Of a stretch of DNA of 64,000 nucleotides, positions 20,377 to 53,879 are shown in pieces. Source of the stretch: Acidobacteriota bacterium (GTDB lineage: Bacteria > Acidobacteriota > Vicinamibacteria > Vicinamibacterales > UBA823); contig PCAK01000044.1 in NCBI GenBank assembly GCA_002730525.1, positions 62,001 through 126,000 of the forward strand. Direction: 5' to 3'. The notes below the pieces were generated by a model that did no database searches, was not told where the DNA came from, and saw only the letters and a list, made by a program, of their open reading frames with translations. The translations under genes were made by a program, and so were the position numbers. The first letter of the stretch is position 1. Every line of letters starts with the position of its first letter.

Positions 20377-22485
20377 CTAGAGCATCCAGCCCACGACCAA
20401 CGGCGCGAAAATAACCGAGACGATGCTCATTAGCTTGATGAGGATGTTCAGGCTCGGACCGGCGGTGTCCTTGAACGGATCGCCCACCGTGTCGCCGATG
20501 ACCGCCGCCTTGTGCGGCTCGGACCCTTTGCCGCCCATGTGGCCTTCCTCGATGTATTTCTTCGCGTTGTCCCAGGCGCCGCCGGCGTTGGCCATCATCA
20601 GGGCCATCAGGACGCCGGTCACCAGCGAGCCGGCCAGGAGACCGCCCAGGCCGGCGACACCGAGGACGAATCCGGTGGCGATCGGGGCGATCACGGCCAG
20701 CAGGCCCGGTGCCAGCATCTCCCGAATGGCCGCCTTGGTCGAAATGGCGACGCACTGGGCCGAGTCTGGCTCGGCCTTGCCCTCGAGCAGGCCGGGAATC
20801 GACTTGAACTGTCGCCGGACCTCCTCGATCATCTTGGCGGCCGAGCGGCCCACGGCGTTCATCGTCAGCGCCGAAAAGATGAAGGGCAGCATGCCGCCGA
20901 TGAACATCCCGAGCAGCACGTTGGGATTGTCGAGATTCAGGCTGAGCAGCCGGACTTCGAAGGCCCCGGCACCGCCGGCGGCCTCGATCGCGGCATCCGC
21001 CGTCGCCCGATAGGTGCTGAACAGCGCCAGTGCCGTCAGCGCCGCCGAACCGATGGCGAAGCCCTTGCCAATGGCCGCCGTCGTGTTGCCGACGGCATCG
21101 AGCGCGTCGGTCCGCTCCCGAACGAACGGCTCACAGCCGCTGAGCTCGGCGATCCCGCCGGCGTTGTCCGCCACCGGACCGTAGGCATCGACGCCCAGGC
21201 TGATGCCGAGCGTCGACAGCATGCCGACCGCCGCGATCGCGATGCCGTAGAGTCCGGCCCAGGCAAAGCTAAGGAAAATCGCCAGACAGATGACCAGGGT
21301 CGGCCCGCCGCACGACATCATGCCGATGCCAAGCCCGGCGATGATGTTCGTGGCGGGTCCCGTCTCGGACTGCTGGGCAATCCGCTGGGCGGGCGCGAGG
21401 TCCTTCGCCGTGTAGTACTCGGTCAGCTTTCCGATCGCGACGCCCGAACCCAGCCCAACCATCACGCACCAGAGCACCGCCAGTGGCAACCCCAGCACGG
21501 AGACCAGGCCTCCGGCCGCCAGCACGACGAGGACGGAGGCCAGGAACAGGCCGCGATTGAGGGCGCCCTGAATCGCCTTCTCATCGTTGGTCCGCACGGC
21601 GAAGGTGCCGACGATCGAGCAGATGATACCGACTCCAGCCAGCACGACCGGGAACAGCACGAGCGCGCCCTGCAGCGCGTCGAACGCGTCGGCGGAGGTC
21701 CCCCAGAGGGCCTCGGCAGAGGACGCGCTCATCGCCCACGCCAGGGCGATCGAGGAAATGATGCTGCCGACATACGACTCGAACAGATCGGCGCCCATGC
21801 CGGCCACGTCGCCGACGTTGTCACCCACGGCATCCGCGATCGTCGCGGGATTCCGGGGATCGTCCTCGGGGATGCCGGCTTCGACCTTGCCAGAGAGATC
21901 GGCGCCGACGTCGGCCGCCTTCGTGTAGATACCGCCGCCGACGCGGGCGAACAGGGCGATCGACGAAGCCCCGAGCGATAGCCCGAACAGCGACTCGACC
22001 GCCGATGGGCCCGAGCCGTCCAGGCCGCCGAACATCGAGTAGAGGATGGCGATCCCGAGGGTGCCGAGCGCCACCACGGTCAACCCCATCACCGCACCGC
22101 TGGAAAACGCCACGCGCAGCGCGCTCGCAAGGCTCGTCTTGGCCGCCTGCGTCGTCCGCACAGCCGCACCGGTGGCGGTGCGCATCCCGACCCAGCCGGC
22201 ACAGGCCGACAGCGTGGCGCCGACGAGGAAGGCGACGGCCGTCGTCACGGCGCTCCGAGGCAGAAAGATCGCCAGCACGATGAACATCACGGCAACGAAG
22301 ACGGCCAGCACGGAGTACTCCACGCGCAGGAACGCCATGGCACCGCTGCGGATGAGGGCCGCGATGCTCTTCATCCGATCGGTTCCCGCGTCCTTCTTGT
22401 TGATCGCCTGAATGAGGACGAACGCGAAGATCGCCGCGCAAATCGGCGCGCCTATGCCAAAGATCAAAAACAGCTGCTGTCCCAT
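20377..22485 (-). CDS. hppA: Membrane-bound pyrophosphatase, K+-dependent and Na+-type by signature
   Basis: Integral membrane ion pump (702 residues, about 16 hydrophobic helices) that couples pyrophosphate hydrolysis to export of H+ or Na+. Pyrophosphate-binding blocks are visible, for example [19 protein letters not shown] and [17 protein letters not shown]. At the site that decides potassium dependence the sequence is NTTAAIGKG (Ala470, Gly473), the K+-dependent form; K+-independent pumps have Lys and Thr. Glu236 in DLFESYVGS is placed as in Na+-pumping enzymes, although some K+-dependent H+ pumps share it. A weak promoter lies at 22553-22582. Transcribed alone between uppP/DUF502 and tonB. 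Confidence 0.95.
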
Positions 22486-52436: not shown

Positions 52437-52769
52437 GTGAGCGCCAACCAGCCGCGCACGCAATCAATCGAGGTCGTGGATACACCCGCCGGCGCCGTGC
52501 TGAGCGTACACACTGTGCCCCGCGCCGGACGCTCAGCGGTCAGCGGGGTCCGCGACGGCCGTGTCCTCGTCAGGCTGGCGGCGTCACCGGTCGACGGCGA
52601 GGCCAACCGCGAGCTCATCGAACTGCTCTCCGGGATACTGAAGACGCCACGCACACAGATCCGACTCGTTCGCGGTCACGGAGCACGCCGGAAGCGACTC
52701 TTGATCGAAGGCCTGAGTGCCGCGGCGGTGGTGCAGCGCCTGGCTGCAGTGCTCGTCAACCAACCGTAG
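52437..52769 (+). CDS. yggU: DUF167/YggU family protein
   Basis: Small cytoplasmic protein of 110 residues with the DUF167 core VHTVPRAGRSAVSGVRDG, VRLAASPVDGEANREL and VRGHGARRKRL. Function is unknown; it commonly follows yggS, as here (13 bases). GTG start. Converges with the frameshifted gene downstream of lepB. Confidence 0.9.
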   Translation: MSANQPRTQSIEVVDTPAGAVLSVHTVPRAGRSAVSGVRDGRVLVRLAASPVDGEANRELIELLSGILKTPRTQIRLVRGHGARRKRLLIEGLSAAAVVQRLAAVLVNQP

Positions 52770-52779
52770 CGCGCTCACA

Positions 52780-53138
52780 TCAGCGAATGACGTCGCTTGC
52801 CCGCGTTGGCCGTGTCGTCCAGGCGTCGACGCTCACGACGAATCGCCACGGACGCACCATGCGCGGCAGCAGTTCGAGCTGGGCCGTGTAGCTGGCATCG
52901 ATGTACATGTGATCCCGCTCCTTGCGAACCCGGACGTCGGCCGGATCGAGCGGCAAGTCGTACTCGCGCGCCAGCTCGACGACGCGGCCCGCGATCTCGC
53001 CTGCGCTCCGGACCCCGCGAACTGCGCGGCCGACTGCGCGGCATCCTTGAACTGCGTGTAGTCCCAATAGACGGGACCGATCTGCCACACGGCCCGGGCG
53101 ATGAGGCCGGCCACGAGCAGCTTGAAGAGAAGACGCAT
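52780..53138 (-). pseudogene. Small membrane protein gene broken by a frameshift
   Basis: Two frames together read as one protein. The first (from ATG 53138) gives MRLLFKLLVAGLIARAVW, a single membrane helix, up to DAAQSAAQFAG. After the C-run at 53013-53016 the protein continues in the next frame as RSAGEIAGRVVELAREYDLP, then YIDASYTAQLELLPRMVRPW, to the TGA at 52780. Adding one base in the run restores about 119 residues. It resembles small DUF4845-like proteins that lie near lepB. The gene sits 45 bases after lepB in the operon. It may be a true break or a sequencing or assembly error. Confidence 0.8.
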
Positions 53139-53183
53139 TGACGTGGCTCCGCGGCGGCCAGCCGATGCTCGGCCGCCACCTCC

Positions 53184-53879
53184 CTAGCGGATCTGGTGCA
53201 GCAAGCGTTCCCACCGTGTGCGGGTGAAGAAATGAGTCGCGACCGACCCGACGCGACGGACCGTCGCTCCAACACCCGTTGCGCGATACTTGCCGGCCTC
53301 GCTCTCGTACGACCAGTAGATGACCAGCGCCCGCCCCTTGACCAGCTCGCGCGGCAGGAACCCCCAGTAGCGGCTGTCCTGGGAGTTGTCGCGATTGTCG
53401 CCCATCACGAAGTACTCCCCGGCCGGCACCGTGACGGGCCCGTACTGCTCGCGCACGTCCGCACCGGCGTAGGGCGAGTCGGGGTCGGATGGCGGCCGCA
53501 AGTAGTGGACATATGGCTCGTCGAGCGGCCGTCCATCGATGTAGACGCGCTTGTGCCTGACCTCCACGACGTCACCGGGCAGACCGATCACCCGTTTGAT
53601 GAAGTCTCGCTCGGGATCGTCGGGAAACTTGAACACGACGATGTCTCCGCGCGCGATCGGCGCGACCGGGAGCACGCCGCGCTCCGCGCCGGAGGCCGTC
53701 GGCGCGAAGACGAACTTGTTCACCAGTAGATGATCGCCGATCAGCAGATTCTGCTCCATCGAGCCGGTCGGAATCTTGAAGGCCTGCACCACGAAGGTCC
53801 GGATGAAGAGCGCCAGGATCACCGCAACGACGATCGATTCGAAGTACTCGCGCAGTGTCGACTTCTGGAACTGGGACAT
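53184..53879 (-). CDS. lepB: Signal peptidase I
   Basis: Membrane-bound serine protease that cleaves signal peptides of secreted proteins. 231 residues, one N-terminal helix; catalytic Ser40 in IPTGSME and Lys95 in DFIKRVIGLPGD, with the GDNRDNSQDSRYWGF block near 165-180. ATG follows the lepA stop by one base, the classic lepA-lepB pairing. Substrates in this window include the exported TPR and LptD proteins. Confidence 0.96.
   Translation of the reverse strand: MSQFQKSTLREYFESIVVAVILALFIRTFVVQAFKIPTGSMEQNLLIGDHLLVNKFVFAPTASGAERGVLPVAPIARGDIVVFKFPDDPERDFIKRVIGLPGDVVEVRHKRVYIDGRPLDEPYVHYLRPPSDPDSPYAGADVREQYGPVTVPAGEYFVMGDNRDNSQDSRYWGFLPRELVKGRALVIYWSYESEAGKYRATGVGATVRRVGSVATHFFTRTRWERLLHQIR

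Follow-up and report, generated by a model that had tools for sequence, protein, structure and literature searches.

Beside lepB in this genome lies a small gene whose reading frame is broken in the assembled sequence, and the question it raises is whether the break is carried by the organism or was introduced into the consensus. The gene sits in the 64,000-nucleotide stretch that we analysed (the window, G000:C44:62001-126000), part of a 3.31-Mb assembly (G000) in 45 contigs that is 99.2% complete. As the initial annotation had stated, and as can be seen in the minus-strand sequence, the small gene adjoins lepB and starts at an ATG at 53138; the lepB stop (53184) is 45 bases upstream of that ATG. 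This upstream neighbour (53184..53879, minus strand) encodes an intact signal peptidase I (Peptidase_S26, E 4.7e-56) that is 92% identical to its counterpart in G001, the one further genome of this genus in our comparison set. On the other side a DUF167/YggU gene (52437..52769, plus strand) converges on the small gene and ends 10 bases from its stop. The first part of the broken gene (53013..53138, minus strand) holds the start codon, one membrane helix at the N-terminus and the start of a domain; the remainder (52780..53012, minus strand), which carries the DUF4845-like domain, continues in a different frame, inside an open reading frame listed at 52780-53214 on the same strand. The frame changes at a run of four G (53013..53016, minus strand; CCCC on the plus strand). 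As read from the start codon, the ORF (52833..53138, minus strand) encodes 101 amino acids: the sequence is family-like up to the run, after which ~55 unrelated residues follow.

The copy in G001 describes what the unbroken gene looks like. There, directly after lepB, a single open frame of 119 codons runs from its ATG; in both protein and nucleotide alignments it matches the first frame of G000 as far as the run, then the second, and the nucleotide alignment makes G000 one base shorter than G001 in this stretch. Translation and alignment thus confirm that family-like sequence passes at CCCC 53013-53016 into the other frame and extends to 52780, that one gene has been split over two frames, and that a 119-residue protein would result on restoring the frame, all of which had been proposed from the window. 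The second-frame piece of G000 shares 87% protein identity with G001. Moreover, the post-lepB stretch of G000 scores 550 against the G001 gene, compared with 41 for the best of 300 shuffles, which excludes a chance likeness. We regard G001 as a sound reference because the two genomes are collinear at ~90% identity over contig pair C3/C44, and likewise over four further contig pairs. Comparison with the lepB-downstream ortholog in relatives had been suggested in the initial annotation, which made the absence of an intact ortholog part of its case for a real pseudogene. We ran this comparison and found the gene intact in G001; we judge that criterion to be wrong, as an intact copy in a relative is also what one would expect to see next to a recently formed pseudogene. 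Piecewise dN/dS between G000 and G001 (0.217 overall, 0.114 before the break and 0.321 after it) shows that purifying selection acted on the small gene through most of the divergence between the two genomes; from these low values it follows that the break, if real, is recent. A background dN/dS distribution (450 ORFs, median 0.315) was set aside, as it was contaminated by shadow ORFs.

Adjacency to lepB is typical of the DUF4845 family (PF16137), and this is also the Pfam family that the most orthologs of the small gene match (11 of 28 at E <= 1, best 5.6e-5). The G001 ortholog scores 17.8 bits against it (E 0.0063), short of the Pfam cut-off of 27 bits; the two G000 pieces give no PF16137 match at E <= 1; and a PF16137 search of 21 genomes yielded 0/21, with control genomes likewise giving no match. 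For a profile-profile comparison by hhalign, we aligned the 28 orthologs with 12 gammaproteobacterial members, taken from the position after lepB in proteobacterial loci and each a match to PF16137 at E <= 1 (best 3.6e-26): the two sets align over 100 columns with a probability of 97.3 and an E-value of 2.2e-11. Given the sub-cut-off Pfam score together with this strong profile-profile match, the small gene is, by sequence comparison, a divergent DUF4845 relative and not a Pfam-level member. A literature search for PF16137 found no paper.

Modelled with a mean pLDDT of 93.1, the G001 protein contains a helix at residues 2-38, a second helix at 45-58 and three strands. This N-terminal helix accords with the single membrane helix of the initial annotation, its membrane crossing being judged from sequence; the model also has a small alpha-beta domain. 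The predicted topology is one N-terminal helix in the inner membrane and an alpha-beta domain that would lie outside the membrane. The part that is lost from G000 includes the only invariant column, P91, as well as the C-terminal strands. Foldseek returned no match for the G001 model at E <= 0.001, and in a second fold comparison the best matches were pantothenate synthetase chains (Z 7.4), a level that is also reached when no true relative exists; no pilin is among the fold matches listed, which excludes nothing.

We searched 60 genomes, G000 included, with a profile (A1) built from 28 orthologs. lepB is found in 58 of them (E <= 1e-40) and the small gene in 37; the second-frame piece used alone detects it in 31/60. 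No match to the A1 profile was obtained in G002-G008, which are members of the same family as G000. In one of these, G002, a wreck of the small gene follows lepB: two aligned stretches, separated by stops and a large loss, give a local score of 38, against 31 for the best of 300 shuffles (550 for G000 as positive control). Nothing recognisable follows lepB in G004, G005, G006, G007 or G008; G003 was left out of the locus comparison. In five genomes of one family (G011, G023, G033, G051 and G059), the ortholog is beside lepB on the opposite strand, and the two genes converge. We also noted that a TAA interrupts the match in the G016 copy (G016:C203:13342-13668), which may be a further, independent loss.

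Further evidence as to the nature of the break comes from other broken genes in G000. In total, 855,587 bases of G000 and G001 were aligned one to one (731,150 of these in one earlier alignment). Our first frame screens were swamped by antisense shadow ORFs and stretches upstream of starts, and a first stop-codon screen, which gave 303 candidates for the first direction, most of them spurious, was discarded. A strict screen, with codon-position G+C filters and a requirement for non-overlap, covered 467 genes that are open in G001: G000 has nine frame breaks, and four in-frame stops in three genes. In the reverse direction (499 genes), six frame breaks were listed, only one of which, in a gene for a carboxypeptidase-regulatory-domain protein, is real (four N gaps were dropped, as was one break that by eye precedes the start of a metK-like gene), and there is one stop. 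The small gene beside lepB makes a tenth G000 break, found by a looser test outside the strict set. The G000 frame breaks are mostly one base short, several of them in short runs, and one is one base long.

The broken genes themselves, named from family searches unless stated otherwise, are varied. The contig that holds the window also encodes a Crp/Fnr-type regulator (G000:C44:156593-156598) that has a one-base frame break and is open in G001; frame breaks are also present in a cyclase, an NmrA-like gene, a DUF4097-like gene (named by eye), an unnamed gene, and a second unnamed gene where the lesion is a 37-base deletion. A pyridoxal-dependent decarboxylase has one in-frame stop. In at least two genes there is a second, independent lesion: an NtrC-type sigma-54 regulator (G000:C20 ~21214-21633; open in G001, L305:6600-8057) is dead, with two in-frame stops besides a single frame break, and a PfkB-like kinase (G000:C20 ~103453-103539, versus G001 L301:8218-9387) has one frame break and one stop. 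Such second lesions and larger losses point to real gene decay. In six broken genes, the small gene included, no second lesion was seen. We also observed that the lesions of the PfkB-like kinase sit in a stretch that is nearly identical to G001, far over the 90% seen elsewhere, which would fit a recent exchange.

The remaining frame break, one base long and in a G run, is in ftsX (G000:C32:44774-45425; compare L338:5297-6214). The N-terminal side of G000 ftsX is replaced by unrelated sequence, and there is no ftsE-like frame there either; in G001, ftsX is whole, with an ABC-ATPase gene just upstream. No other ftsX copy was found in G000, whose ftsX state represents either a lost cell-division gene or a misassembly. 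We had considered this break as a mark of assembly error in a vital gene, an argument that was dropped because the N-terminal side is also replaced; with that replacement and no second copy, ftsX is unusable as an untouched control.

Bearing these observations in mind, we incline towards the reading that the lepB-linked DUF4845-like gene has recently been inactivated in G000 by a one-base frame change, and is a young pseudogene. That the base difference is present in the organism rather than in the assembly is something we infer. The change would inactivate the gene for a putative inner-membrane protein: translation from 53138 would yield the membrane helix and then ~55 unrelated residues, so that the folded domain would be lost.

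The main competitor, which we consider quite possible though short of probable, is an indel error in the assembly: the organism's gene would be intact and the consensus one base short in the G run. The initial annotation had called such a homopolymer error the simplest explanation, and G000 does have one-base breaks that are missing from G001. The error reading also fits a gene that was under purifying selection and has a single lesion, in a G run; and it fits the imbalance of about ten frame breaks in G000 against one real break in G001 over the same 855,587 bases, most of the former being one base short and several lying in short runs. Furthermore, frame breaks outnumber in-frame stops (nine versus four in the strict screen), leaving room for some errors. 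Against it stand the signs that decay in G000 is real, namely the independent second lesions in several broken genes and the 37-base deletion, and the state of the small gene in the rest of the family, where it is lost or wrecked.

It is very unlikely that the frame change is real and yet tolerated, with a truncated product that still works by means of its membrane helix: the start codon and the helix are intact, but the conserved domain is lost, including P91 and the C-terminal strands. We give next to no credence to programmed ribosomal frameshifting, entertained in the initial annotation, that would join both frames into one functional protein: the protein is indeed conserved on both sides of the run, each in its own frame, and a G run can slip, but the gene in G001 is a single open frame, as are the other translated orthologs, which need no shift (G016 excepted, with its stop inside the match), there is no conserved shift site among the sister and translated orthologs, and by eye no classic slippery heptamer stands in the zero frame at the site.

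If the gene has indeed been recently inactivated, as we favour, why might selection on it have ceased? The lineage of G000 is shedding genes, possibly type IV pilus motors among them; a putative homolog in Pseudomonas is needed for pilus-driven twitching, and motor loss would remove selection on the small gene. We take that homolog, Q9I5G6 (PA0769), to be a DUF4845 protein beside lepB. In the searchable text of PMC9427106, two transposon mutants of P. aeruginosa Q9I5G6 are described as having lost pilus-based, not flagellar, motility, with complementation, and the complementing vector is named with PA0769. The full text of that source is indexed with DUF4845 nine times, none of them in its searchable main text (PMC9427106).

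In G000, pilM, pilN, pilO, pilP and pilQ (named by family searches) are all open, which indicates that the pilus system is not simply gone. T2SSE-family (type II/IV secretion) ATPases number one in G000 (G000:C36:37598-38761), four in G001 (C21, two on C40, and C37), and none in G002 and G004; the lone G000 ATPase scores under the cut-offs of both PilB and GspE. A recent loss of pilus motors from G000 is possible, and the missing genes could sit in assembly gaps. Both G000 and G001 keep pilM and pilO; in G002-G008 there is no PilO match and no strong PilM match (strong meaning E below 1e-30, a threshold of our own). Across the 60 genomes, 36 have both strong PilM and the small gene, 14 have PilM only, one has the gene only (G059, a fragmented genome) and nine have neither, a co-occurrence with a Fisher p of 0.0004 that is not corrected for kinship, 7/9 of the 'neither' genomes being one family. 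The coupling is loose, as 14/50 genomes with strong PilM have no detectable DUF4845-like gene. These data are suggestive only of a tie between the small gene and type IV pilus genes across genomes, and we claim no strict link. We speculate, as a rather doubtful extension, that the DUF4845-like protein serves the type IV pilus of Acidobacteriota, as its putative counterpart seems to do in Pseudomonas, and that G000 has been caught with its motors gone, pilMNOPQ still standing and a satellite gene just dead, on the way to relatives that have neither pilus genes nor the small gene.

A one-base break in a small gene is, taken alone, nothing unusual. What this locus offers is an extension of the uncharacterised DUF4845 family to Acidobacteriota, below the Pfam threshold, and a family of genomes at different stages of losing pilus genes and the small gene, which makes the link to the pilus testable.

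The locus resembles young single-frameshift pseudogenes of bacteria in its open relative, its low dN/dS and its one lesion. The function of Pseudomonas Q9I5G6 was shown in another phylum, and the Acidobacteriota protein is likened to it by putative family membership. With respect to DUF4845 of Gammaproteobacteria there are, besides the low Pfam score of the G001 ortholog, two differences: the next gene in the gamma loci that were read looks by eye like rnc, whereas the window has DUF167 there, on the opposite strand; and the prepilin methylation motif is matched by 4/12 gamma DUF4845 members at E <= 1, yet is absent among the 15 families listed for the 28 Acidobacteriota members. Common to both groups are the position after lepB, the single N-terminal helix and the profile-profile match that connects them.
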